Shown here: positions 10,569-25,694 of the stretch, in pieces
Numbering within the stretch: position 1 is the first letter of the stretch
Layout: each line of letters begins with the position of its first letter
Source: Halococcus sediminicola
GTDB lineage: Archaea > Halobacteriota > Halobacteria > Halobacteriales > Halococcaceae
Assembly: GCF_000755245.1 (NCBI RefSeq)
Contig: NZ_BBMP01000005.1
Location: forward strand, 62,001-126,000
Direction of reading: 5' to 3'
Length of the DNA stretch: 64,000 nt
The notes under the pieces: model-generated
Database searches by the model: none
Told to the model about the DNA's origin: nothing
The model's input: only the letters and a program-made list of their open reading frames with translations
Made by a program: the position numbers and the translations under genes

Positions 10569-11147
10569 TCATACTGTGTGCTTATCAAGCGCCCATAGCG
10601 CCATATCCACCTCTCGCGGTGTGAAGTCACGTTCATCAGCAATGGCCCACACCTCGTTTAGGTAGAAGTCATAGGTCCGGGGCCGCTTCTGATAATTGCG
10701 GAAATGTTCCAGAAATTCAGCAAAGGTGGCGTAGCTGTCGGTGGCAGCGAGGTCGGGCCGCACTGCGATGAGAGCGCGAAGCGCCCGATAATCGATAATG
10801 GCGTAGGTTTCCGGGTCGGCCACCGTCAGTACAGTGGAGGCGATCGGAACCCGAACGCCATCTAAGCGAGACAACGTCTCGACCGCCACAACGGGGTCGT
10901 GGGCTTGCAGGGCTGTTCGGGTGAGCCGTGTAACCGACTCTTCATCGTTTCGGTGGACAAGGCGGTCATTCCGCCGGTTTCGATTTTTCCACCTGCCGAT
11001 CCGAAGCAACTCGTTACGCGAGACTTCGCCGCGAGACTGAATCGCCATCGAGATGGAGCCAAATCGCGCGTCACCGTCCTTTTCCCATTCGCCGTCGGGT
11101 GTCAGGTACTCAATGGGCGTGGCCGTCCATTCTTTCTCGGAATTCAA
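10569..11147 (-). CDS. Helical protein with HhH-GPD-like segment
   Basis: 192 aa. An N-terminal module (TPDGEWEKDGDARFG, then NELLRIGRWKN) is followed by a helical core with DGVRVPIASTVLTVADPETY and AIIDYRALRAL. This resembles the helix-hairpin-helix region of HhH-GPD DNA repair proteins (LPGVGxxTAxxIL...DPExYxxID). The catalytic Lys or Asp of glycosylases is not obvious, so function is open. Its 5' end overlaps, antisense, the first codons of the SRA-HNH gene. Two alternatives follow: this gene starts internally (Met at 11048), or the neighbour lost its original start. Confidence 0.65.
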   Translation of the reverse strand: MNSEKEWTATPIEYLTPDGEWEKDGDARFGSISMAIQSRGEVSRNELLRIGRWKNRNRRNDRLVHRNDEESVTRLTRTALQAHDPVVAVETLSRLDGVRVPIASTVLTVADPETYAIIDYRALRALIAVRPDLAATDSYATFAEFLEHFRNYQKRPRTYDFYLNEVWAIADERDFTPREVDMALWALDKHTV

Positions 11148-11919
11148 GGGTCAGCGTCAGCACGGAATCTCAACACCAGTTGATCTCCCTGTTATACTCA
11201 TTTTCACAGATGTTGAAAGCAAGGAGTATGGCTACAGCGACCAGTTCTTCGACAATGGAATCTTCGTCTACTCTGGAGAGGGTCAGCAAGGAGACATGGC
11301 TATGGAAGGGGGGAATGAACGGATACTCAATCACAAAGACCGCGGTGATGTACTTCATGTCTTTGAGAAAGTGGGAGACATCAGCGGTGCAGACGTATTC
11401 TCGTATGATGGCCAATGCGAGTATGTAGACCACTTCTGGGAACAAGCCCCTGATGTGAATGGAAACTTGAGGCGAGCTGTCCGGTTCAAGCTAGCTCCTC
11501 TTGGTGGGATCGAAGCTGATATCACCGAAGCAGAGGCTGCATCGCTCTCCGAAGACGATCTCTTTCGGAGAGCAAAGCAAGCTCTTTCCACAAAGGACAC
11601 TACCGAAACCACAACATACGGTAGTTCGAACGAGAAATCGTATTTTCGGAGCCAGTTGGTACGAGACTTCGCGTTATCAGTTGCTAATGGTGTTTGCCAG
11701 GCCTGTGAAAAGAATGCGCCCTTTAGAACTAATATGGGGAAGCCATTTCTAGAAGTTCACCATATTCATCGCCGAAGCGACGGCGGTCTTGACGATCCAG
11801 AGAACATTATTGCAGTTTGTCCTAACTGTCATCGAGAGACACACTATGGAGAAGCTGGTGATGGAATCAACAGTGGGCTTATTCAGAAAGCAGAAGACCG
11901 CAACCGTCGATTTTCGTGA
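11113..11919 (+). CDS. SRA-like + HNH restriction endonuclease
   Basis: About 268 aa from ATG 11113 (an earlier ATG at 11053 is also open). Counting from 11053, residues 32-150 form an SRA/YDG-like module: GQRQHGIS, GYSDQF, YSGEGQQGDM, GNERILNHKDRG, LHVFEKVG. This fold flips and reads modified cytosine. Residues ~200-270 are an HNH domain with CQAC (215-218), EVHHIHRRSDGGL (H236-H237), N251 and CPNCH (256-260). Such proteins cleave DNA carrying modified bases (McrA-like type IV restriction). Homologues usually have extra residues before GQRQxGIS. Here the N-terminus is short and overlaps an antisense gene, so a 5' rearrangement is possible. Confidence 0.85.
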   Translation: MGVAVHSFSEFKGQRQHGISTPVDLPVILIFTDVESKEYGYSDQFFDNGIFVYSGEGQQGDMAMEGGNERILNHKDRGDVLHVFEKVGDISGADVFSYDGQCEYVDHFWEQAPDVNGNLRRAVRFKLAPLGGIEADITEAEAASLSEDDLFRRAKQALSTKDTTETTTYGSSNEKSYFRSQLVRDFALSVANGVCQACEKNAPFRTNMGKPFLEVHHIHRRSDGGLDDPENIIAVCPNCHRETHYGEAGDGINSGLIQKAEDRNRRFS

Positions 11920-11990
11920 CTTCCCATCTGCAATTGCTGCCGTCTATTTGTGCGCAATTTTTATGATATCTTAGGATCATTCCATATAGA

Positions 11991-14768
11991 ATGGTCAGCC
12001 TCCTCCCCGAATATCCCTTCTTCATCGACTACCGGGATGAAATGCTATCGAGACTCTCTTCGATTGAACAGTTGGCTGTATTGGACGATGAAATCGCCAA
12101 TAAGGCGGTTCTTAGTCGGTACCAGGGACCGGTCGATTCGTTCGAATGGCGATATTTAGAAAGTCATTATGATGACTTGTTCGTCAAATTCCTCCTCGAC
12201 CGGATCACGGGGATTGTCGATACAACACCGGTTGAGACACACAAACGAGATTTCCACCAATTTCGCCATGGTATTGCAAGGCTCAACCGACATCTCCCGA
12301 CACAACGGTCTGTTACTACCACAACGTTAGCGAAGCCAGCCGAACGGATACTCCTCAAGCGCCTTCGACAATCCGGCTTCAATCCGGACGACCTCTCGCT
12401 ATCGTATATCGAGCGAGGTGGTGGACTGTATCTCCTTGAGCTATTCGTCTCCGCTGCACAGCAGCAGGCACTACACAGAGGGCCATTGCTGACGACACTC
12501 CTCAACGAAGCTAGTACCCTCGGAGAGGGGAATCAAGATTCAGTTTCAGAGCTACTCAACTACCCGGTGTTGATGGTCACTCCGTGGAAAAACCAACGTG
12601 ACGGACTCAACCGGTGGCTAGAGAACGATCAAAAAGGTATTCTTGAGATGGCAACTGCGACCGGCAAAACCGTCGCTGGTATCGCAGCAATAGCATACCT
12701 CTGTGGCGACCTTCCCGAACATCCCGACCAAGAGCCCGCTACTAACGACGCCAAAATCCTCGTTGTCGCTCATTCGAACGCGATCCTCAAACAGTGGGAG
12801 CGCGAAATCCAGGAAAAACTCGGGCTGCCGATGCCCGAGCGCACCGACGCGGATCTCCCCGACAAGCTCCATTTCGCCACTGGCAAGGTCGAGTTCTATA
12901 CGGCTCAGTCACTGCTGCCCCGCTATGATCGCGATCTCGAAGACGAGTACGATCTTGTGATCTACGATGAAGTCCATCACTACTCGAATGTCAAAGGATT
13001 CGGCAAGGCCATCACTCGGCCCAACTACAAAGCTGCAATCGGGCTCTCGGCAACAATCGGCGATGAGGACGGACCGAAGCGCCGTCAGTTGGAGCAGGTC
13101 CTCGCTCCAGTTGTCTACACGTATGGATTACAGGAGGCGTTGGCCGATAGTATCATTCCGGAGTTTGAATGGACCGTCCATCCCACGGCACTCGATCCAC
13201 ACGAACGGAGCGAATGGCAAAAGACGACCGACTCTATTACGAACACCTTCCGAGCGATCAAAGCGAGCCCTGAAACACGGCGCGCCCTTGAACGACTGAG
13301 TGTTCCCTTTACCGAGATGCGAGACCTGGGTGACTTCATCCAGGCGTTTCAGGCTGCAGGCATTGAACGAAACGGGAACGTTCCCGACTCCTGGGAACGA
13401 TTGCAAGCGGCGATCCAGAGTCGTAACTGGATCCGCCACCGGTCCCGCCCGAAGCTCGACGATGCCATCCGACTCGCCAAAGATTACCTGATCGATTCGG
13501 ATCAGCAGGTGAAGCTCGTCATCTTCTCGATGGATATTGCCTCGGCAAACAGGATTGCTGAGGAGCTTCGTGAGATCTCTGATAACGTCTTCTTAGCCCA
13601 CAGTAAACTCGCGAGTTCGTCGAAGAAGAATACAAAGCTCGTCCAGCAGAATATCGATGGCTTCGCGAAAGCACAGAACGGTGTGCTCGTGTCCCCGCGA
13701 TTGCTTGATGAGGGTATCGATGTTCCCGACGCTGAGGTAGGTATCAACGTCGCAGGAACGAAAACACAGCTTCAGCTTGTCCAACGGATGGGTCGGATTC
13801 TTCGCAAACATGGCGATAAGAAGCCCCATTTCCATCACTACATCTCGGTTCCCGACGAAGAATATCTCGAGGGGCTCGACTCAAAGGAGTACGCACAGGA
13901 ACTCAACTGGGTTCGTGAGTTAGGGACCAAGATCGGCCAACAGCCAATCATCGATGACGCGACGGTCAATCCGGACGTTATCCATCATGCAGAACAACGT
14001 GGTAACGAACTCTGGGCACAGGACCTTCTCAACGATATTGGCGTTGAAACGGTTCAAGGAACCATCCATCTCGATCAGGTTCTTGAGGATCTAACTGGGC
14101 CAGCTGCTGGAACGATTAGAAGCCACCTTGAGATAGACGATAATGAGCTAAGTAGGGACACCTGGCAAGCTACGATGGAGGAACTCCGTGAACAGGATTT
14201 ACTACCGGTTCCAGTATTGCAGCGGGTCTGGTGGCTGTTCCCGCTATATCGGGAACGGCCATCGGAGCTGGACGAGCTGTTGGTTGAGGTCGTTCGTGTA
14301 AAGGGAGATGATAGGAAGACTTCGACAGCCACTACGAGTGAGCAAGAATCAGCGATCGAGGATGAAAAAGACGTTGAAGCTGACCAAGATCTCAATGAGA
14401 GTGAGCCTCTGGAATCCGCTCAACAATCGGGACCACCAGATGTCGGCCAGCAGGATACAATACGCGCTAACGGTAGTAATGGAAAGTCCGATGACAAGTG
14501 TGTAAGCCATGGACAGTCTAAGAAATGCGATGATCCGGAGGGGAAAGGAGAGATCAACGCAGAGCCGAAATCACCTCAGCAACCAATATCCATCACCGAT
14601 ACCTCTAGGAGCAGTAATCGATATTCCGACAAGACTCGGAGAAGAGAAACTCCCGCTATTGAGAACAAGGACTCAAATTTGCAGGGAACTGCTAGATTGA
14701 GCGAGTTTGAGTGGCAACAATCGGAAGGTCTACTAGCGAAGTTGTGGAAACGAATTCGTGGCCGCTGA
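11991..14768 (+). CDS. SF2 (DEAD/DEAH-type) helicase
   Basis: 925 aa. Helicase motifs appear in order: Q-like ENDQKGILEM, Walker A TATGKT (~220), DEVHH Walker B (~325), GLSAT motif III (~350), then in the second RecA domain VLVSPRLLDEGIDVP and QRMGRILRKHGD motif VI (~597). The first ~190 residues are a specific helical N-terminal domain. The last ~170 (from ~750) are a Ser/Glu/Lys-rich, low-complexity tail, probably disordered. The type resembles the RAD25/type III restriction-like translocases. It lies 72 bp after the SRA-HNH gene and 119 bp before the AddB-like gene, all on one strand, so it may power either neighbour. Confidence 0.9.
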   Translation: MVSLLPEYPFFIDYRDEMLSRLSSIEQLAVLDDEIANKAVLSRYQGPVDSFEWRYLESHYDDLFVKFLLDRITGIVDTTPVETHKRDFHQFRHGIARLNRHLPTQRSVTTTTLAKPAERILLKRLRQSGFNPDDLSLSYIERGGGLYLLELFVSAAQQQALHRGPLLTTLLNEASTLGEGNQDSVSELLNYPVLMVTPWKNQRDGLNRWLENDQKGILEMATATGKTVAGIAAIAYLCGDLPEHPDQEPATNDAKILVVAHSNAILKQWEREIQEKLGLPMPERTDADLPDKLHFATGKVEFYTAQSLLPRYDRDLEDEYDLVIYDEVHHYSNVKGFGKAITRPNYKAAIGLSATIGDEDGPKRRQLEQVLAPVVYTYGLQEALADSIIPEFEWTVHPTALDPHERSEWQKTTDSITNTFRAIKASPETRRALERLSVPFTEMRDLGDFIQAFQAAGIERNGNVPDSWERLQAAIQSRNWIRHRSRPKLDDAIRLAKDYLIDSDQQVKLVIFSMDIASANRIAEELREISDNVFLAHSKLASSSKKNTKLVQQNIDGFAKAQNGVLVSPRLLDEGIDVPDAEVGINVAGTKTQLQLVQRMGRILRKHGDKKPHFHHYISVPDEEYLEGLDSKEYAQELNWVRELGTKIGQQPIIDDATVNPDVIHHAEQRGNELWAQDLLNDIGVETVQGTIHLDQVLEDLTGPAAGTIRSHLEIDDNELSRDTWQATMEELREQDLLPVPVLQRVWWLFPLYRERPSELDELLVEVVRVKGDDRKTSTATTSEQESAIEDEKDVEADQDLNESEPLESAQQSGPPDVGQQDTIRANGSNGKSDDKCVSHGQSKKCDDPEGKGEINAEPKSPQQPISITDTSRSSNRYSDKTRRRETPAIENKDSNLQGTARLSEFEWQQSEGLLAKLWKRIRGR

Positions 14769-14887: not shown

Positions 14888-17020
14888 ATGCCCTCCGTGA
14901 GCGAATACGACATTGCTCTCTCTGGCAAGCTATACGAATATCCGTTTCTCTCCACCGATATTGGTGATCAGATTGCACCGTTGTATGCAAATCTTGCTGA
15001 AGAATACGGGATTGACAATGTCCTCGTCGTAAAGCGGTTTCCGACTGAGACAGACGATATCGCTGAGTCCCTTGGGAATGCAATCGAAGGTATTGAGCGA
15101 CCGAACGTCGTAGGACTGTCGGCTCACGCAATCCATACTTTAGAAGAACTCCCGAATCCGCCTCGCCAACTCGATATCACTGAATCATCGCTACTACTAT
15201 CTTCGTTTATCAAGCGTCGGAACTGGACTACCGAATACCTTGAGCGAGCATCTGAGAGAGACTCGTTTGAGTTCGACGTCGAGAGACTCGTCCAAGAAGC
15301 GACGTGGCAGGGCAATGTGATTAATACAGACGACCCTGTACTCGCGGAACTCGCGAAGGTCAACGATACCTATCACGAGTGGCTCGCTGATGCGGATCTC
15401 TTGCCGTCACCAGGGACATTCAGCTACCTGCTAGATGCACTTGCCGATACCGACCTCCAGAATCGAGTCCAGGAAACATATGACGCAGTTTTGGCACTAG
15501 AATTCGAGGAATTCACAGCAATTGATCGTGCGTACCTGGCCCGTATCACTCATGATTGCGAATTGATTTGCGTTGCCGAGCGCGACAGCGCCATTCAGCG
15601 GACGTGGAACGAGCCTGGTCGAATCTCCGATTATACGCCGGATCTGCATACCACTACTGAGCAGGGAACGACCCCACGAACGACTCCGGCGGCGATTGCT
15701 GACTTCTTGGCGACTGGTGATACTGCTGGAGAGCCCGACGATGGATTAGCGACAGTCATCGAAGCCACGACGTTCGAAGAGCAAGTCGGGACTGTCGGTG
15801 AAGAAATCGAGCGTCTCCACCGAGTCGAGGATATTCCCTACGACGAAATGGCGGTCGTCCTGCGCGATTCGAATTCGCGAATCCCGGAAACCCTTCGCTT
15901 GTTACGGACGACTGGCATTCCAGTTCGATCGGCGACTGTCAGTGGACTCGAGCAAGATCCTGCAGCGCGTGAATTGTATGCACTCACGAGCTGGTGTCTT
16001 GAGACGGTCGGCACAACAGTCGGAGAGGGAGATGTCGGGTGGTCCACGGACCGGGCCCGAACTGTGCTCAGTGCACGCGTCCCCGATCTCTCTAACGAGA
16101 CGCTGGCCGAGATTGCTGAATGCGGTCGTAATGAGAGCCTCACCGCAGCCCTCGACATGTGGCTGCTACGGTCGAATCTGAAACACCGGACCGCTGCCAA
16201 CGAAGACCCCTTCCAAGCGAAATCCCAGTTCGAACACGTCGATACCGTCCGGTCGCTGGCGCAAACACTGGATGACTCGGACCTTCTCGATGCAACGTGG
16301 GAATCTCTCGGTAGGGGCCTCGAGCGGGAGATGCAACGAGCAACGAGCGACAAGATCGCTACCGAACTCGAGCTCCCAGAGGGTGGAGTCCTCGTCGATG
16401 CAGCTCGTGTACTGAAAAACACCAGCAAGGAGGCAGTCTTCCTTTTGAGCGTCGTCGACCAAGAATACCCCGCCGATCCACAGCTCAACTCGCTGTTTCC
16501 ACCCCCAGTGATCGAACAGTTGGAAGAGTATCCTGCCTTCACGACCCCTGATTCGAGCGACGTTCGGCGTACCTTCGAATACGCCAGAGAGGAGATTACA
16601 CGGCCGCTGCATGCCTATTATGCAGCACTGAGTCGCCGAATGCTCGCGATCGGGGCACGAGCGGCGACGACAAATCTGTATTTCGGTACCTATCGAGAGG
16701 ACCGTACCGGGAGTGGCCGCAACCACCAGCAGTCACGATTTCTCGACGCAGTAGAAGACACGTTCGGCGAACTCGACCGTCTCGATCACGACGACATCCA
16801 CACCCACGGTCGGGCAGTGCGATTTTCGTTGAACCGTGTCGACGATGCGTTCGAAAACGTTCGTCGAGCGGGCTTAGTCCGAGACCCTGTCGATCTCGAC
16901 GCTCTCGAAGCGGATTTCGCTGGAGTCCAGGAACTGCTCCAAGCCGATCCGCCGGAGGATCTATCGGATGCGATCGAAGCACGGGTCGATTTCGCCGAGG
17001 GGGTAGTTCGTCGTGAGTGA
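14888..17020 (+). CDS. AddB-like inactivated UvrD-type helicase subunit
   Basis: 710 aa from ATG 14888 (MPSVSEYD). I reject an in-frame upstream start at 14828 that would read through the C10 tract. The chain follows the UvrD/AddB plan but lacks a Walker A. The place of Walker B is held by LEFEEFTAIDRAYLARITHD, the degenerate form typical of AddB-like partners. Mid-protein IPYDEMAVVLRDSNSRIPE corresponds to the AddB segment before the second RecA-like domain. KEAVFLLSVVDQEYPADPQLNSL matches the VFxxGxxExxFP region of AddB. It has no recognisable nuclease domain of its own. The ORF overlaps the next gene by 8 bp, so translation is coupled. It is likely a structural/recognition subunit of an AddAB-like complex. 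Confidence 0.8.
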   Translation: MPSVSEYDIALSGKLYEYPFLSTDIGDQIAPLYANLAEEYGIDNVLVVKRFPTETDDIAESLGNAIEGIERPNVVGLSAHAIHTLEELPNPPRQLDITESSLLLSSFIKRRNWTTEYLERASERDSFEFDVERLVQEATWQGNVINTDDPVLAELAKVNDTYHEWLADADLLPSPGTFSYLLDALADTDLQNRVQETYDAVLALEFEEFTAIDRAYLARITHDCELICVAERDSAIQRTWNEPGRISDYTPDLHTTTEQGTTPRTTPAAIADFLATGDTAGEPDDGLATVIEATTFEEQVGTVGEEIERLHRVEDIPYDEMAVVLRDSNSRIPETLRLLRTTGIPVRSATVSGLEQDPAARELYALTSWCLETVGTTVGEGDVGWSTDRARTVLSARVPDLSNETLAEIAECGRNESLTAALDMWLLRSNLKHRTAANEDPFQAKSQFEHVDTVRSLAQTLDDSDLLDATWESLGRGLEREMQRATSDKIATELELPEGGVLVDAARVLKNTSKEAVFLLSVVDQEYPADPQLNSLFPPPVIEQLEEYPAFTTPDSSDVRRTFEYAREEITRPLHAYYAALSRRMLAIGARAATTNLYFGTYREDRTGSGRNHQQSRFLDAVEDTFGELDRLDHDDIHTHGRAVRFSLNRVDDAFENVRRAGLVRDPVDLDALEADFAGVQELLQADPPEDLSDAIEARVDFAEGVVRRE

Positions 17021-17924
17021 CGATCGACAGCCCGTTTCGCCGTCGAGTCTAGCAGTGTACGCCACCTGTCCGCGCCAGTTCGAATACGATAAACGGTGGC
17101 AAGTCGAGACACCCGAAGCCTCCCGCCGCTATCTCGATCGAGGGCTCGTCTATCACGGAGTAATCGAAGACACCTGTGAGCAGTTCAGAGACGAGGAAGC
17201 AACTAACGAGGAGATCCGGCGCTTCGCGTTCGAGCGCCTCGATCAGCGATGGGTGACCGAGACTGATCGAGCGCAGTACGCATCCGATGCTCAGTATCAC
17301 TACGATCGCGATCTCACGAGTGCCGCGCTCGAATCGTTTTTCGACACCGATGGACTAGACCACGTTCGCAATTCAGTCGTGACTGAAGAATGGCTCACCT
17401 GCGAGCACAATGGGGTCCAGTTGCGCGGTCGTGCTGATAACATCGTTCGCACCGATGACGGGATTCGCGTCGTCGATTACAAAGGCTCACTCAACGGGAT
17501 CGTCAGCTGGTACTCGGCCGATCAGATCAGTCAGCATCGAGCGGGCGAGGAGTACGCTGCAGGAATCCTCAAAAGCGTCTTTCAGGCGGCGACGTACATC
17601 GAGGGCGCAAAACAACTCGAGATGTACGACCCAGACATGGATGTCGAATTTTCGTTCTACGCGTTATTGAAGGATAAAACCCGGACGCCGCACACGGAGG
17701 GTATTCGAGTCACTGTCTCCGGCGGCGAGCGCGAGGTCACCGACATCTACGAGGACAATCGGGAGGACATCTGGGAGATAATCGCCAACTGCTACAGGGG
17801 AATCATCGGAGAGCACTACGAGCCCGAGCGCTGGGAGCAGATCCGTGAGCACGCGTGTGGGGACTGTGATTACCAGTCGATGTGTGGCGACTACCTCAGT
17901 GGGGAGGTGCGTATCGATGGCTAA
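17013..17924 (+). CDS. Cas4/RecB-like PD-(D/E)XK exonuclease with Fe-S cysteines
   Basis: 303 aa, GTG start at 17013. It begins PVSPSSLAVYATCPRQFEYD, the standard start of Cas4/AddB-type nuclease domains. Active-site residues are H49, D142 (RGRADNIV) and D155-x-K157 (IRVVDYKGS), followed by Q191 in VFQAATYIEG. C19 plus C282, C285 and C291 (CGDCDYQSMC) are the four ligands of a 4Fe-4S cluster. It overlaps both flanking genes by 8 bp, so the three are translationally coupled. The domain is one normally fused to the C-terminus of AddB. Here it is a separate polypeptide, suggesting a split AddB: helicase-like part upstream, nuclease here. No cas1/cas2 is nearby, so a CRISPR adaptation role is unlikely. 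Confidence 0.88.
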   Translation: MSDDRQPVSPSSLAVYATCPRQFEYDKRWQVETPEASRRYLDRGLVYHGVIEDTCEQFRDEEATNEEIRRFAFERLDQRWVTETDRAQYASDAQYHYDRDLTSAALESFFDTDGLDHVRNSVVTEEWLTCEHNGVQLRGRADNIVRTDDGIRVVDYKGSLNGIVSWYSADQISQHRAGEEYAAGILKSVFQAATYIEGAKQLEMYDPDMDVEFSFYALLKDKTRTPHTEGIRVTVSGGEREVTDIYEDNREDIWEIIANCYRGIIGEHYEPERWEQIREHACGDCDYQSMCGDYLSGEVRIDG

Positions 17925-20900
17925 CGAGGACCCACCCATGAACGAGAGCGCTCAGGATCCGGCTCCCAACGGCGACGCTGAAGGCATGCCGGACCCGCGG
18001 CCAGACCAGGAAGCGATCATCGAATCCGACGAGTATCCGATGCGCGTGCTCGCCGGTGCCGGGACCGGGAAGACGTTCACGATGGTGCGGAAAATCGAGC
18101 AGTTGCTCGAAGGGGACACTGCACCGGATCGAATCCTCGCGCTGACGTTCACGAACAAAGCTGCCGACTCGATGCGCGAGAAGCTCGTCGATCGAGTGGG
18201 GCCCCAAGGCCACGATATCGAGGCCTACACCTATCACGCAGTCTGCCACGAACTGCTGCAGGATTTCGCGTATCACGCCGATCTCGATCCGCGCTACTCG
18301 ATCGCAACGGACGCGGATCGACTGGCGATCGTCTACGACGTACTCGATGACGTGCCCTATCGGTTCACGAACCCGGATGTCTACGAAGGGGTCGCATTCG
18401 CCGACGGAGCGACCGACCGGCTCCTGAAATTCGTCCAAGTGATGAAGCGGGCCGGCATCATGCCTGCCGATCTTCGGGAGTACCTCGTCGAACCGGCCCG
18501 TCTGATCGAGCTCGAAGGCCTCGTCGAACGCATCGAGACTGCCGTCGAAGAGCATCTTCGGGTCGGTTGGCAGACGATGACCGACGAGCGAATCGAAGAG
18601 CTACAGAGCCGACTAGAGACCTTCCAAGACGAACTGCAGGCCGAACACGACGCGTTGGCCGACGACGGTATCGAAGCCGATATCGCCGGCTATCTCGACG
18701 TGATGGACGGAGCATGCGATGCGCTAATGGAGTTTTTCGAGCGGCGATCGTCGGAGATCGTCGATGGCGATCTCACAGCAGCCCTGAAGCTTCCGGCCCA
18801 TCTGTTCGGATCGTACAGTAACGCGCCATCGGGTATGCCCTCGATATCGTACGAATTCCCCAAGAAACTCCGAACGTTCGTCGAGAGCTGTCAGACCGTC
18901 TCGGACCTCGTCGAGGGATACGAAGCCTACGAAAAACGGCTTCATGAGGAGGATCTCCTCGATTTCAACGACCTCGTGTTGCGAACCGTCGAGTTGCTCG
19001 AGGACGATTCGGTTAACGACTGGATCACCGGACAGTACGACTACGTTTTCTGTGACGAGTATCAGGATACCGACGCCGTCCAGTTCGAGCTAGTCCAGCG
19101 AATGGTTCGTGACGACCAACTATTCGTGGTTGGCGATGATGATCAGGCGATCTACGAATGGCGTGGCGCGGACGTCGACAATATCGGGCCACGCCTCGAT
19201 GCAGCATTCCCCTCGTTGACCGACCGGACGCTCGAAGAGAACTTCCGCTCGCGCCAGCCCATTCTCGATCTCGCGAACAACGCACTCGACGAACTCGACG
19301 AGCGTGGCAGTGACAAGGAACTCACGGCGGTCGAAGACAAGGCCGACGCCACTGAGGGAGTGATCACGATGGAGGGGGCCGAGGAGTCGGACGACCAGGC
19401 TGAGCAGATCGTGAACGCGATCACGCGGCTGCTGAGCGGCGATGGGTCACAGATCGACGAGGAGTACTCGCCGGGCGACATCGCGATTCTCGTCCGGAAG
19501 AACCGGCATGCGCGACCGATTATCGACGGCCTTTCCGAGCGCGGCATTCCGTACGAACTCGGTGGCGATCTCGCTGCAGAGTCAGTCGGTGTCGAAACCG
19601 TCGTTGCTGGCCTGAAGGTGCTTGCCGATCCGAACGATGAGGTTAGTCTCAACCGACTCCTACGAATGCGCTACCGGCTGCACGAATCCGATCTGCGGCG
19701 GCTCAATATCAGGCGTCCAAGCGGTGGCGGCGGCACACTTCAGGAGCGACTCCTCGAACTGCCGCTGGAGACGTTCGAGGAGCCCGAACGAATCGAACAG
19801 GCTCGAGAGGATCTGCAGGAACTGTGGTCGCTCCGATCGACATACTCGCTCTCGCAACTCTATCGGGAGCTGAAATCGACGCTGAATCTCGAGTGGTTCC
19901 TCTCGGAACAAGAGCGGCGTGATCTCAAGGCTATCGACGAGATTATCGATTCGTTCGACGAGAGCACGATCGAGCCCGAGCTATCGACCGACTTCATCGA
20001 GTTTCTCACTCGCCACGGATCGATTACGGAAGGATCCAGCCGGAGCATGGAACAGCAGCCCGAGACCGACGCGACTGCCGTCTCGATCATGACGATCCAC
20101 AAGAGCAAGGGTCTCGAATTTCCTGTCGCCGTTCTCCCCCGCCTCGAAGCCGACCAGTGGGAGCCAAGCACCCGGACGTACGACGACATCGAACACGCCC
20201 TCACGGAGGGCGATCCTGCAACGGTGGATTTCGCTCGTCCCGACGAACGCGAGGCACGCCGGCTGCTCCACGTTGGGATCACGCGGGCCGAGGACTGGTC
20301 GATTCTCGTTGGTCGTCACGAGGAAGCCGACGAAACCGACGAGGATGACGGGATTTCGGCCGAAATGGTCGACGAGATACTCGGAACTACCGTCCCCTGG
20401 AGTGCTGCAGGCGTCTCGTTTCCGATCTGGGAGACGATTCAGTCGAGCCTACCGTCGACGGCGATCGATGGGACGGATACTCTCGCAACACCGATCGAAA
20501 CGACCGAGCGAGTAGCAGCGATCGACGACGGTCGTTCTCTCTCGCGCTCGGAGGCCCAAGAGCGGATATTCGAACTCGCACGAGCAATGCTATCTGGTGA
20601 TCTGGTTTCGACCGGCCGAGAAGACAGTCCAATAGACCCCTCTGTCCTCGGCGAGCCACGTGGTCAGCGCCTTCAGCGACGACACAGCTACACCTCCCTG
20701 GATACACTCACCACTTGCACCCGGCAGCACTACCTCGATCATGTCATCAGAGCGTATAGTGATCCGAGTGCAGCGATCTCGTCAAAGGGTTCTGCTAAGA
20801 GAGGTTCTACTGGTGGGCCGGAAACACCGAGCGTCCGAGTCGTAGGGCTCCTCTTTCATGCTGTTGCGGAGCGAGCGGCCAAACGTGGCTACGAGACGCC

Positions 20901-21432
20901 GGAGCGGTGGAAACAGGCCGCCGAGTCGATCGCCGCTGCTCGGGGGCAACGTGGCGCTCTCGATCGTGTTATCGACTGTATCGACCGCTACTTCACGATG
21001 GTCGTCAGTGAGTGGTCCATTCGTGGTGCGGAGGTCGATTTCGATCTCACAATCGAGGGCAACACCGTGGTCGGACAGATCGATGCGTTGTATCACACGA
21101 CCGACGGCGAGAAAGTCGTGATCGACTACAAAGCAACCGATCGTGACCGATCGATCGATTCGGATCTCCAGTTGCCGATCTATCTCCTTGCTGCTCGCGA
21201 CCTCTTTGGGGAATCGATCGCCACCGCCGGCTATGCGTACGTGGGTCGTTACGGCCCGAAGGTCGTGACGCGAACGTTTGCCCGGGAGGAGTTACAGGCT
21301 GCTCGCGAAGAGCTTCGAGAGCGCCTTCAGGCAGCCGAGCATAGCTCCTACGGTGACTACCAAGCTGGAGACCATTGCCAATACTGTGCTCACCAAAATC
21401 TCGCTTGTAGTGACGCTATCGAGCTGGATTAA
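17917..21432 (+). CDS. AddA/RecB-like UvrD helicase-nuclease
   Basis: 1171 aa from the ATG at 17917 (an upstream frame to 17845 lies inside the preceding gene). SF1A helicase motifs are complete: AGAGTGKTFTM, ALTFTNKAADSM, FCDEYQDTDAVQ, VVGDDDQAIYEWRGAD, LEENFRSRQPIL, IMTIHKSKGLEFPVAVLP and LLHVGITRAED. The C-terminal ~250 residues are a RecB-type PD-(D/E)XK nuclease with VGQIDALYH, VVIDYKATD and LQLPIY. A 4Fe-4S set is formed by CTRQHYLDH and HCQYCAHQNLAC. With the two coupled upstream genes this makes an AddAB/RecBCD-like end-processing machine. Archaea usually resect ends with HerA-NurA/Mre11-Rad50, so an AddAB-like set is accessory here and fits DNA degradation or anti-phage defence. Confidence 0.92.
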   Translation: MANEDPPMNESAQDPAPNGDAEGMPDPRPDQEAIIESDEYPMRVLAGAGTGKTFTMVRKIEQLLEGDTAPDRILALTFTNKAADSMREKLVDRVGPQGHDIEAYTYHAVCHELLQDFAYHADLDPRYSIATDADRLAIVYDVLDDVPYRFTNPDVYEGVAFADGATDRLLKFVQVMKRAGIMPADLREYLVEPARLIELEGLVERIETAVEEHLRVGWQTMTDERIEELQSRLETFQDELQAEHDALADDGIEADIAGYLDVMDGACDALMEFFERRSSEIVDGDLTAALKLPAHLFGSYSNAPSGMPSISYEFPKKLRTFVESCQTVSDLVEGYEAYEKRLHEEDLLDFNDLVLRTVELLEDDSVNDWITGQYDYVFCDEYQDTDAVQFELVQRMVRDDQLFVVGDDDQAIYEWRGADVDNIGPRLDAAFPSLTDRTLEENFRSRQPILDLANNALDELDERGSDKELTAVEDKADATEGVITMEGAEESDDQAEQIVNAITRLLSGDGSQIDEEYSPGDIAILVRKNRHARPIIDGLSERGIPYELGGDLAAESVGVETVVAGLKVLADPNDEVSLNRLLRMRYRLHESDLRRLNIRRPSGGGGTLQERLLELPLETFEEPERIEQAREDLQELWSLRSTYSLSQLYRELKSTLNLEWFLSEQERRDLKAIDEIIDSFDESTIEPELSTDFIEFLTRHGSITEGSSRSMEQQPETDATAVSIMTIHKSKGLEFPVAVLPRLEADQWEPSTRTYDDIEHALTEGDPATVDFARPDEREARRLLHVGITRAEDWSILVGRHEEADETDEDDGISAEMVDEILGTTVPWSAAGVSFPIWETIQSSLPSTAIDGTDTLATPIETTERVAAIDDGRSLSRSEAQERIFELARAMLSGDLVSTGREDSPIDPSVLGEPRGQRLQRRHSYTSLDTLTTCTRQHYLDHVIRAYSDPSAAISSKGSAKRGSTGGPETPSVRVVGLLFHAVAERAAKRGYETPERWKQAAESIAAARGQRGALDRVIDCIDRYFTMVVSEWSIRGAEVDFDLTIEGNTVVGQIDALYHTTDGEKVVIDYKATDRDRSIDSDLQLPIYLLAARDLFGESIATAGYAYVGRYGPKVVTRTFAREELQAAREELRERLQAAEHSSYGDYQAGDHCQYCAHQNLACSDAIELD

Positions 21433-21455: not shown

Positions 21456-22475
21456 CTACTGATCGTGGGCTTCGATAATCGCATTGTCGCGCTTGATGAG
21501 GGGTTCGACTTTCGGGCTCCGACAGTCGACTTCGAGTTTTTCATCGTGCCACGCCATTCCTCCCTTTCCTTTCCAGACGCCGTACAACGTCACTTTGGGC
21601 AGCGTGAGGACACCGAAGAGAATACTCAGAAGATAGAGGGTGTCCTGTATCTCTTGCCAGGATCCAGTCAATTTTCGTGGCAGTCCTTCCGGGAACTCAA
21701 CCCGCTGGGCATGGATGCGATGTGAGCGAGCACGCTCGATGAAGTCGCGGTCGTTGCTAAATAGCAAGACTTCCTTGCGGGTTTCGCGTTCGTATTCGTC
21801 GTAGCCTTCGATGATCTCCTCATCGCCCGTGTCCGTCGTGAACTCATCACCGTACTGTTGGTCGCGCAGCTGGCGATAGCAGAGTTCGCCCAGTCGACCT
21901 TCGCGACTCGCCCCCGCAGGTTGGTTCCAGAGTGCTTCGAATTCGGGGCCGAACGCTTCAACAAGCGATTGGGTGTCTTTTCGCTTGCCGCCCCAATCTA
22001 GCTCATCGCGGATGCCAGTGGCGAGCGCAAACCCGTTGATAACTGGCTCGTCAGTGGAACGTAAGCCAAGCATATGTGCTGGTCGCCAGGGCATGATATT
22101 GGTATCGAACCCTGCTAAGACAGGGTCAGCACCCGCGTTGAGGTCTGGGTTCCCATAGCGATCGAGAAAGTCCGCGATCTCCGAGTCGTTCCCTGGCGAC
22201 AGTAGTCCCCCGGCGAGAAAGGCACTGAGATACGATCGTGGACTCGGTAGTTCGTTGACCGCTGGTGCGCCATAGGAGCTATTGACGGCACTGCGGGCAT
22301 CGGAATACGTCTGAAAGTCCTTCGACAGGCGAACAGTACTCGACTGTGGGCCACCGAGTTCGATTCTGAACAGCTCGCCAACGTCACTCCCGGGATGACT
22401 GACTGGGATAGTCGTCTCACCACTATCGTATAGCGCGTTCAGCAAAACCGTCAGTCGAGAACGTGCGAGTTGCAT
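21456..22475 (-). CDS. PIN-like nuclease, partner of CARF protein
   Basis: 339 aa. Residues ~118-260 show a PIN-type pattern: LAGFDTNIMPW (D124, N126), an acidic residue in GIRDELDW (E158), an acidic helix YDEYERET, then LLFSNDRDFIERA (D242, D244) at the end of a strand. This is the D...E...(N/T)D.DF set of metal-dependent PIN RNases, with a larger spacing than VapC. The ~115-residue N-terminal part is specific and unassigned. Near the C-terminus, LYLLSILFGVLTLPKVTLYGVW is hydrophobic enough to be a membrane or buried segment. Its ATG abuts the stop codon of the upstream CARF gene with no gap, and it ends 23 bp from the AddA-like stop on the other strand. It is probably the effector half of a CARF-controlled pair. 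Confidence 0.68.
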   Translation of the reverse strand: MQLARSRLTVLLNALYDSGETTIPVSHPGSDVGELFRIELGGPQSSTVRLSKDFQTYSDARSAVNSSYGAPAVNELPSPRSYLSAFLAGGLLSPGNDSEIADFLDRYGNPDLNAGADPVLAGFDTNIMPWRPAHMLGLRSTDEPVINGFALATGIRDELDWGGKRKDTQSLVEAFGPEFEALWNQPAGASREGRLGELCYRQLRDQQYGDEFTTDTGDEEIIEGYDEYERETRKEVLLFSNDRDFIERARSHRIHAQRVEFPEGLPRKLTGSWQEIQDTLYLLSILFGVLTLPKVTLYGVWKGKGGMAWHDEKLEVDCRSPKVEPLIKRDNAIIEAHDQ

Positions 22476-22955
22476 TCAGTAGACCTCCTTGAAATCGATA
22501 AGCTCGCTCTCAGTTCGTGGAATTTCGGGATAGGATCGGCCATGATAGTCGGAAGATTTGAGATGGAAATAGTAGACGCGATCGGCGTCATGAATCATTC
22601 CAACGGCAAATGCGATCGCCGACATGAACTTCCGCCCGGGAGTGAAATCGATCGCCACCTCTCCCTCGGTGTCGTCCGTGTCGTCGATTGCATCCTTAGC
22701 ATGTGCCTGAATTTTGTCGAACTCGAGTTCGTTGTCGATCGAGGTTAGTCTGATCTCCGGTTCGTCCCCACCATATGCAGTGATGATCTCCGTCGCGATA
22801 TCGAGCGCCTGATCCACTTGTTCGGAGACGCCAGGATTTTCGAGGATATGCAGACGGTCGGGGATGAATCCCTGCTCACAGGCAGCGTTGATCGGATTGA
22901 CAATTGCCTTGAGTGTAGTACTTCCATTCGTGACCCACACGTTCACCATGAGCAT
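22476..22955 (-). CDS. Stand-alone CARF-domain sensor protein
   Basis: 159 aa. It is a small Rossmann-like domain: strand 1 and loop VNVWVTNGSTTLKAIVNPIN (4-23), alternating helices and strands, then the characteristic VAIDFTPGRKFMSAIAFAVG (100-119) followed by RVYYFHL. The pair of a Thr/Asn-rich loop after strand 1 and the D-x-T-(P/G)-G-x-K-x-M-S motif is the ligand pocket signature of CARF domains. CARF domains bind cyclic oligoadenylates made by type III CRISPR complexes or, in other systems, other nucleotides. No effector domain is fused; the adjacent PIN-like gene supplies it. No type III CRISPR gene is in this window, so the activating ligand would have to come from elsewhere or be different. 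Confidence 0.78.
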   Translation of the reverse strand: MLMVNVWVTNGSTTLKAIVNPINAACEQGFIPDRLHILENPGVSEQVDQALDIATEIITAYGGDEPEIRLTSIDNELEFDKIQAHAKDAIDDTDDTEGEVAIDFTPGRKFMSAIAFAVGMIHDADRVYYFHLKSSDYHGRSYPEIPRTESELIDFKEVY

Positions 22956-23070: not shown

Positions 23071-24171
23071 TTAAGGGGCAGCAACGTCGAAAACCTCATA
23101 GAGCCGATCAAGTGTTTGCTGATCTTGCAATCTTGTAACCGTGTTCTGGTTGGCGTATAGTCCCTTTTCCCAGAACGCATTTTCTACGTCAAGCGTTTTC
23201 TCCCACTCAACGCCGATCAGATACTCCCGAAGATCGGGGTCCTCTTCGTCTCGGCTTAAATCGCCTTTGAGGGGCGCTTCAGTGATTGGAATCTCATCTT
23301 CTTCACCTTCAACACTGACCATAAATTCCGGTGCCGGCGTCTTTTCTTGAGTGACAATCCCCACTCCGATATATCCTTCTCCAGGATTATAGACAAAGAT
23401 GCGTTTGCCTTCCGCCACTTTCTCCATCGTTCGATGATACCACTCGCCGTGGCCACCGGTAATGAATCCGTATTCACGAGCATCTTCCCATTTCCGGTAC
23501 TCGTTCTGTCCGAAATTTGCGTAGAAATCGTATCCATTCCAGGGTTCTTGGATGGCCTCTTCCTCTGTTTCTTCTGATTCGTAGGGATCCTTTAGCCAGG
23601 TGCGGGCAATGTACTCCCGGCCCTCTTCCATGTAGTAGTTGAATCGAATCGCGTTTATCGGAACCTCAAATTCTTCGGAAAGATACTCGATAATGCGCTC
23701 CGTAGAGCTGTCTAATTCGGAAGAAACAATCGTCAACTTATGCTGGTTGTTCACTTCTTCAGGTCCGGTTGGCGCGTCGTCTCGAGCGGGATAGAAAGCA
23801 GAGCCGAATCCCGCTTCGAACGTATTGGTGTGTTCGTCAGATGCTTCATAAAGATCCTTTACAGCCTGATAGTCAAGGCGTCTAACCCATGACGCATAGT
23901 CAAGAATCTGCGCAGTAACATCTCGTGGTGAGCGATCTCGCTTCAGTTCAACAACGTGAAGATCACCGCCTTCATCTATCGCTAAAATATCGAGGCGTTT
24001 CCCGCTTGGTGTCGTTATCTGTCGGTCGATAACGAGGAGCGGCTGGCCGAGGACATTTGGATCTTGGAGGAGGAACCGTTCTAAACGGTCTTCACTGTCC
24101 AGATTCGTAGAAGAGACACGATGAAAGGTATCGTCGCCCCCGATTCTCCAGAGCCCTAGATCGATTGGCAT
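23071..24171 (-). CDS. NucS-like PD-(D/E)XK endonuclease with EVE/PUA-like C-terminal domain
   Basis: 366 aa from ATG 24171; a longer frame to 24321 crosses the divergent promoter and the start of the neighbour, so I reject it. Residues 25-110 carry the NucS/DUF91 nuclease signature: LERFLLQDPNVLG, KRLDILAIDEGGDLHVVELK (D61, E75, K77) and RDVTAQILDYASWV (Q88). Residues ~215-290, with ANFGQNEYRKWEDAREYGF, FITGGHGEW and FVYNPGEGYIGVGIV, look like an EVE/PUA-superfamily domain that binds modified bases. That makes a modification-sensing restriction enzyme plausible. It is divergent from the SRA-EVE-HNH gene (83-bp shared promoter region) and upstream of the CARF-PIN pair on the same strand. Confidence 0.82.
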   Translation of the reverse strand: MPIDLGLWRIGGDDTFHRVSSTNLDSEDRLERFLLQDPNVLGQPLLVIDRQITTPSGKRLDILAIDEGGDLHVVELKRDRSPRDVTAQILDYASWVRRLDYQAVKDLYEASDEHTNTFEAGFGSAFYPARDDAPTGPEEVNNQHKLTIVSSELDSSTERIIEYLSEEFEVPINAIRFNYYMEEGREYIARTWLKDPYESEETEEEAIQEPWNGYDFYANFGQNEYRKWEDAREYGFITGGHGEWYHRTMEKVAEGKRIFVYNPGEGYIGVGIVTQEKTPAPEFMVSVEGEEDEIPITEAPLKGDLSRDEEDPDLREYLIGVEWEKTLDVENAFWEKGLYANQNTVTRLQDQQTLDRLYEVFDVAAP

Positions 24172-24254
24172 TGGTACTCTCCATTTATCGCTTACATAAA
24201 TTATGCTCGCTGTTTTTGGTGGGTTATATTGCAACCTGCTTCTGATCGAGAAGT

Positions 24255-25694
24255 ATGAATACTCACCCACCAGAGAATCTCTCCCAAGGTGATCAGCTCG
24301 ATCAGGCCGATATTGAGGCACTCTTTGATACGGGCTTTGGCTATCAGATCTCGGGGATCAACCCTCGCCGTGACGATAGTGACCGACGATATGTACTCGT
24401 TTTCGCCAACGAAGACGGTCCGTATAGCGATACCGTACAAGCTGGTCAATTCGAGTATATTGGAGAAGGACTGAACGGCGATCAATCCAGTTCATCCCCA
24501 GGGAACGCAGTGTTGATCGATGCTGTGTTGAATCCGGTGCCGATCTACTTTTTCTACAAGGGTACAGGCGAACCCCACTGGGAATATCAGGGTCAAGTAG
24601 AGGTGGTAGGACACGATTATACTGAGCGAGATGGCCGCAACGTCTTCGTGTTTCAAATGGCGCATAAAGCGTCTGCGGAGCACGTTAGTGAGAGCGAATC
24701 GAGACCAGGACTCTATCTCGTGCCGATCAGTGATGAGTGGTACAGCGAATTCGAGCGAACAGTCGTCTCGCCGTATACTTTCGACAGTGCTGATGTAACT
24801 GCCCTACCCGACGAAGTAACGCAACCCGATAGAGTACGCATCTGGGGAACCACTGAGACTGATTCGTCGAAAAAGCAGCGTGCCATCGACCAACTGGAAA
24901 CCGGTGACATCATGCTTTTCTACTATAGCGGTAAATTCATCGCGGCTGGTCGCGCTGGTATGGTTCTCACAAGTCGCTCTCTTGGAACTTCGATATGGGC
25001 AAATCCATCCAGCAAACACATCTTCACCCTCACAGAGTACACCGACAATCCGTTGTCAATCGAACGAATCTGGCCAGCATTAGGTTACGAAGGCCGCCAG
25101 GTCGTGCAAGGGTTCACACGAGCAAGTACCGAACGGGTTCACCGACTCATCGCTGAGCTGGGAGCTGTCGAAGCTGTGCTCAATCCATCTCCAACAGTAG
25201 TGACTAACGCGGATCCCATCGCAGTTGACCGCGAGAAAGAACGGGTAGCGACTGCTCTCGAAACGAGTCCAACTCTCATCGAAGAGACAATCGAGTATAC
25301 CGAGCATCGGCGACGAGCACGAGACACTGCGTTCGCTACCATCGTGAAGGATGCATACAGCAATACCTGTGCCGTCTGTGGGAGTCAACGCGAATCACCC
25401 GATGGAATCCCCGAAGTTGAAGCCGCTCACATCTATCCAAAACGGGAGGGTGGGAGCGATGATCCACGTAATGGACTCGCTCTCTGTCGATTGCATCACT
25501 GGGCATTCGACGCCGGCTGGTTCGGATTCTCTGATGACTGTGGGATTGTTGTTCGGGAGGCTCCTTCGAGGACTGGCTACGAAGAATTTCAGACGCTCGA
25601 GGGCACGGAACTGCAGGTGCCGGAAAACGAGTACAAGCCACACCCGCTTTTTTTGAGTGCCCATCGTGATCTAACGGGCTTCGAGAGTAGCTGA
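24255..25694 (+). CDS. SRA-like + EVE-like + HNH modification-dependent endonuclease
   Basis: 479 aa with three modules. Residues ~20-140 are SRA-like (GYQISGINPRRDDSDRRYVL, then FEYIGEGLNGDQ and IYFFYKGTG). Residues ~190-300 are PUA/EVE-like (VRIWGTTETDSSKKQRAIDQ, LETGDIMLFYYSGKFIAAGR). Residues ~355-425 are HNH with CAVC (372-375), EAAHIYPKREGG (H392), N406 and CRLHHWAFD. Two separate base-reading modules on one HNH blade is the architecture of type IV restriction enzymes that cut DNA with modified bases. It is the second SRA-HNH protein in this island and is not closely similar to the one at 11113. It is divergent from the NucS-like gene. Confidence 0.87.
   Translation: MNTHPPENLSQGDQLDQADIEALFDTGFGYQISGINPRRDDSDRRYVLVFANEDGPYSDTVQAGQFEYIGEGLNGDQSSSSPGNAVLIDAVLNPVPIYFFYKGTGEPHWEYQGQVEVVGHDYTERDGRNVFVFQMAHKASAEHVSESESRPGLYLVPISDEWYSEFERTVVSPYTFDSADVTALPDEVTQPDRVRIWGTTETDSSKKQRAIDQLETGDIMLFYYSGKFIAAGRAGMVLTSRSLGTSIWANPSSKHIFTLTEYTDNPLSIERIWPALGYEGRQVVQGFTRASTERVHRLIAELGAVEAVLNPSPTVVTNADPIAVDREKERVATALETSPTLIEETIEYTEHRRRARDTAFATIVKDAYSNTCAVCGSQRESPDGIPEVEAAHIYPKREGGSDDPRNGLALCRLHHWAFDAGWFGFSDDCGIVVREAPSRTGYEEFQTLEGTELQVPENEYKPHPLFLSAHRDLTGFESS

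Follow-up and report, generated by a model that had tools for sequence, protein, structure and literature searches.

Three overlapping genes on the forward strand of the window, that is, the whole stretch of 64,000 nucleotides of Halococcus sediminicola DNA that was analysed, raise the question of whether they encode an AddB protein split in two, together with an AddA-like motor, and what such a set would do in a haloarchaeon. The first gene (14888-17020, +) encodes a protein of 710 aa, here called B, the second (17013-17924, +) a protein of 303 aa, called the nuclease, and the third (17917-21432, +) a protein of 1171 aa, called A. The first two genes share the 8 bp GTGAGTGA (17013-17020, +) and the last two the 8 bp ATGGCTAA (17917-17924, +), confirming in the sequence both the coordinates and the two successive overlaps described in an earlier note on this DNA. 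Translational coupling across the GTGAGTGA overlap (17013-17020) is likely. The full cysteine sets noted at that time are also in place, with C19, C282, C285 and C291 in the 303-aa protein and C934, C1154, C1157 and C1164 in the 1171-aa protein. RefSeq annotates the members as separate genes under generic labels, such as 'DNA helicase UvrD' and 'PD-(D/E)XK nuclease family protein'.

As judged from its sequence, the 1171-aa protein resembles AddA and AdnB and combines an intact SF1 motor with a predicted Fe-S nuclease. It matches the Pfam families UvrD-helicase (2e-59), UvrD_C and PDDEXK_1 (3e-22), and good profile matches include AdnB. The Walker A motif AGAGTGKT is located at residues 46-53 and DEYQDTD at 380-386, followed by a C-terminal PD-(D/E)XK nuclease with the predicted site H981, D1056, D1070, K1072 and Q1085. 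Walker A is kept in all 83 A proteins. The residues of the nuclease site (H, D, D-Y-K, Q, Y) are present, together with the four cysteines, in 80/80 copies, which are those of the 83 with a complete nuclease region.

Regarding the 710-aa protein, it has no match of its own in Pfam, NCBIfam or PADLOC, and a plain sequence search against the PDB gave a chance match only. A family profile of 41 relatives matches mycobacterial UvrD1 (9dci, E 1.1e-8), AddB (3u44_B, E 2.1e-8, profile positions 65-330) and also AdnA; the kinship to AddB and UvrD is thus visible with the family profile, a single sequence being insufficient. Some relatives also match ADDB_N and TIGR02773 weakly. The AlphaFold model (pLDDT 83.3, pTM 0.82) is a confident prediction with the UvrD fold, for which Foldseek gives the lowest E-value to UvrD (1.5e-23) and, among the matches listed, the top query-normalised TM to AddB, 0.57-0.62 over its entries (0.62 for 4cei_B), compared to 0.56-0.59 for AdnB, about 0.5-0.56 for UvrD and about 0.5 for RecB. 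The supposed helicase-like nature of this protein is therefore borne out, as AddB and UvrD are matched both by profile and by fold. The motor motifs are missing, with DEXQD found in 0/83 B relatives and an N-terminal Walker A equally in 0/83, one chance-like match lying at residue 338 of L076. Due to this absence, B is most likely a motor-dead subunit, an AddB/RecC-like pseudo-helicase without a nuclease domain.

The 303-aa protein belongs to Pfam PDDEXK_1 (3e-23), with a predicted active site formed by H48, D142, D155, K157 and Q191, and its AlphaFold model is confidently predicted (pLDDT 90.8). The nearest folds found by Foldseek are those of AdnA (7sjr_A, the best match, 6e-6), RecE, AddB (4cej_B, 4e-5) and EXO5, with Cas4 well below, at only 4e-3. 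The TM values against AddB and AdnA are modest (0.48-0.55), which counts against the explanation preferred here, and the family profile matched no PDB chain at E<0.01. Identity with the Cas4 of CRISPR adaptation was considered and rejected, as TIGR00372 reaches 25 bits against a cut-off of 65 and Cas4 structures rank below AdnA and AddB. Consequently, the fold ranking makes a free-standing AddB/AdnA-type Fe-S PD-(D/E)XK nuclease, in other words, the nuclease domain of AddB/AdnA standing as a protein of its own, a better description than 'Cas4-like', the name given to it earlier.

Relatives of the 710-aa protein occur in 140/391 Halobacteria genomes and 51/86 genera, counts and E-values referring throughout to the sampled genomes. 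The arrangement, previously regarded as rare, is then the standard form of a family present in about a third of the sampled Halobacteria genomes. All three genes are found complete, in one order and never fused, in 82/82 loci, a figure that holds for the loci read, since these were picked among the better matches. As order and orientation are the same in all of these related loci and the Fe-S cysteines are kept, the arrangement is not due to chance. A fused form of B and nuclease was sought in the long open frames of G179 and G091 and rejected, as these are upstream extensions with the trio intact; in L081 and L082, which bear such long extensions, B and nuclease are still two ORFs. Of the 'split AddB' proposed by the earlier note, the separate AddB-like helicase part and nuclease stand, but the direction of splitting does not, because the fused form is seen in 0/82 loci and the family tree is unrooted, so that the ancestor may equally well have been unfused.

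Beyond the order to which the window belongs, a sample across the phylum gave a sole match, a single-chain UvrD-nuclease (G405), and a scan of wider genome contigs only an actinobacterial AdnA-type protein. The trio is missing from most of the window's own genus; the closest relatives (55%) sit in another family, and the nearest copy from the same genus has about 35% identity. This patchy occurrence within the genus and the closer relatives in other families indicate horizontal transfer. A phage origin was rejected, with no relative found in phage records or viral contigs. Among unusual copies, two are decayed or shortened: L101 (G081) has a B ORF of 311 aa, and in L100 (G011) the B ORFs are fragmented. 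A divergent version in 1/391 genomes (L102, 4583-14572; G039 C1:2262000-2281900) has no separate nuclease, and its B (254+426 aa) and A (491+721 aa) are each encoded by two ORFs with overlaps of 4-8 bp, where frameshifts are possible; downstream of these genes lie one for a ResIII/DEAD helicase and one for an SMC-like ATPase.

The family comprises two deep subfamilies, one in which both nucleases are predicted to be intact, the window included, and a sister in which an intact A nuclease is accompanied by a predicted dead small nuclease. The four cysteines of the small nuclease are complete in 82/83 copies, and its catalytic set HDDYKQY is intact in 53/83; in one further copy, L109, D replaces H. 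The degenerate copies (29-30 loci), which retain the cysteines, group together in the A tree, on one side of a single branch with SH-aLRT 100 (29 rows); it is this confinement of catalytic loss to one branch that defines the subfamilies, and separate trees of the three proteins each give the same split. Tree distances among the three proteins are correlated, with r of 0.90-0.98 overall and 0.97-0.99 within subfamilies. Both subfamilies coexist in three genomes: G046 (L059/L137), G150 (L070/L114) and G382 (L058/L105). The suggestion that the complex may carry two clusters and two nuclease sites agrees with the window trio, where both cysteine sets and both sites are intact by sequence.

In Bacillus subtilis, AddB retains its Walker A motif, and the Fe-S cysteines of AddAB are located in AddB only, AddA being without them. 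The trio resembles AddAB of this bacterium (3u44, 4cei) in having an SF1 motor-nuclease, a helicase-like partner and a Fe-S nuclease; A possesses Walker A, DExQD and a C-terminal RecB-family nuclease like AddA, and its 710-aa partner has the AddB-type fold by profile and Foldseek. There are differences, however: the helicase and nuclease parts of AddB are one polypeptide and here two ORFs in 82/82 loci, B lacks the N-terminal Walker A, and Fe-S cysteines are present in both nucleases, A included, not only in the AddB counterpart. The AddB equivalog cut-off (NCBIfam TIGR02773) is reached in 0/194 Halobacteria genomes and by one control genome, and a literature search for haloarchaea with AddA and AddB together found none. 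AdnAB of actinobacteria and mycobacteria (6ppj, 7sjr) also has two nuclease domains, and it is in AdnA that the 303-aa protein finds its best fold match; however, each AdnAB subunit joins motor and nuclease in one chain, whereas the partner in the trio is without motor motifs and in two chains. RecBCD is comparable by its motor-dead RecC-like partner, and the sister subfamily parallels RecC in the degenerate second nuclease, but that nuclease is a separate protein with four cysteines kept, the window's own separate nuclease keeps its active site, and the trio has neither a RecD-type motor nor a conserved third motor gene. UvrD-Cas4 fusions share the architecture of A and similar defence contexts; they were described alone or with restriction-modification genes, not as a B-nuclease-A trio (PMC5704561).

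The surroundings of the genes are rich in defence functions, with genes for PIN and CARF proteins 3' of the trio on the opposite strand and, 5' of it, genes for an HNH protein and a PbeA-like helicase. CARF occurs in 6/82 and PIN in 5/82 other loci. In the window, CARF and PIN are adjacent separate genes (21456-22955, -) of the CARF_m1 type, convergent to the trio, and the same kind of pair is found near it in L042, L060, L063, L068 and L119. Upstream (11053-14768, +) lie the HNH endonuclease and the PbeA/dnd_restrict_1-like SF2 helicase, whose relatives are found in 9/194 genomes (own included), several in open frames of ~1600 aa. Membership in a Dnd/Pbe phosphorothioation system was rejected, as DndC was not found in the window's genome and a PbeA-like helicase is near 0/82 trio loci; elsewhere this helicase is apart from the trio, as in G020 (C2:67852 versus C2:249193). 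Further on (23071-25694), a PDC-S11 candidate defence protein with a NucS-like domain (-) divergently overlaps an HNH protein (+) that resembles phosphorothioate-DNA restriction enzymes. Other neighbours of the trio are a Lamassu-like SMC ATPase, a methyltransferase and PDC-S01 ATPases. A near-alike 463-aa ATPase gene lies ~130-170 bp downstream of A on the same strand in L114, L116, L117, L118, L120, L121 and L129, and L115 has a related gene of 497 aa. As the neighbour genes vary, this defence context could partly reflect residence on plasmids or islands.

In 14/82 loci (L060, L062, L065, L069, L104, L105, L114, L117, L118, L120, L122, L124, L128 and L129), Argonaute, an AgaP-like PLD gene and the trio follow each other in the same direction, the PLD gene ending 5 bp 5' of the B gene in 12/14; in most cases, a PDC-S01-type ATPase gene lies divergently upstream. 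The same pAgo-PLD pair constitutes the haloarchaeal APAP system, for which 'a helicase-encoding gene' adjoining some ago-agaP operons was mentioned; the experiments in the parts of that source consulted concern ago and agaP, and the trio is not described in them (PMC11442185). Operons of pAgo with UvrD-type proteins had been noted earlier (PMC6299218). No Piwi protein was found in the window's genome, so the pAgo and PLD pair of APAP is not present there. Moreover, the trio is full-length beside a shortened Argonaute ORF in L117 and L120, and only a PLD fragment remains beside it in L123, so it is probably not dependent on Argonaute.

Taken as a whole, we consider it quite probable that the trio forms a heterotrimeric helicase-nuclease for processing DNA ends, of the AddAB/AdnAB/RecBCD kind, most likely destroying linear foreign DNA, and probably a DNA-destruction module common to several defence systems. 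By analogy with AddAB/RecBCD, unwinding would be driven by the motor and cutting would be strand-specific. Starting from a DNA end, the 1171-aa subunit would act as the sole motor, moving 3'-5' on one strand and cutting it by its own C-terminal Fe-S nuclease, while the motor-dead 710-aa partner would grip and scan the other strand and hold the complex together. The 303-aa protein would then dock on this partner, supplying the nuclease domain that AddB has and B lacks, and cut the second strand, with both Fe-S clusters presumably loaded, giving two live nuclease sites in the window's subfamily and one in its sister. Defence nucleases encoded nearby would open the linear foreign DNA, and in Argonaute operons the trio may unwind or fragment DNA for Argonaute. 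The defence role is suggested by the genomic context and the patchy occurrence. A farther-reaching version, that the trio is a distinct haloarchaeal class of AddAB type, primitively unfused and serving Argonaute and other defence systems as a module for DNA destruction and guide supply, is offered tentatively, as we find it rather less probable than its opposite. If true, three chains (motor-nuclease, motor-dead scanner and free nuclease) would carry two Fe-S clusters, and one subfamily would have switched off one nuclease, paralleling the difference between AddAB and RecBCD.

Archaeal end resection is usually credited to Mre11-Rad50/HerA-NurA. The main rival to the defence reading is housekeeping repair, where the heterotrimer would resect chromosomal double-strand breaks for RadA, like bacterial AddAB/RecBCD, the defence neighbours being incidental. 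It would fit with the location of several loci on large chromosome-sized contigs (L070, L071 and L073, for example), with the three genomes holding both subfamilies and with the absence of any other PDDEXK_1 nuclease found in the window's genome. However, we judge it unlikely, as about two thirds of the Halobacteria genomes sampled lack the trio, among them most of those from the window's genus, decayed copies exist (L100) and defence neighbours are frequent, Argonaute operons among them. It is less probable still that the three proteins work apart and have only the operon in common, one as a helicase-nuclease of the UvrD-Cas4 fusion type, one as a Cas4-like nuclease acting alone and one as an accessory protein, for although stand-alone UvrD-Cas4 fusion proteins occur in archaea (L098) and an ancillary role in defence was proposed for such fusions (PMC5704561), 82/82 loci retain all three genes in one order, the tree distances are closely correlated within subfamilies, the 303-aa fold is nearer AddB/AdnA than Cas4, and the sister-subfamily nuclease, degenerate yet retained, fits a structural subunit and not a solo enzyme.

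Considering the trio as an end-processing helicase-nuclease, a widespread AddAB-like set of genes in Halobacteria has stayed hidden behind generic gene names. Its separate chains would permit the genetic removal of each subunit singly, and the two subfamilies provide a natural live and dead nuclease pair, which allows testing the purpose of the second nuclease and its Fe-S cluster. In addition, the Argonaute operons offer natural partners with which a functional link between pAgo and helicases of the AddAB/RecBCD type can be tested.
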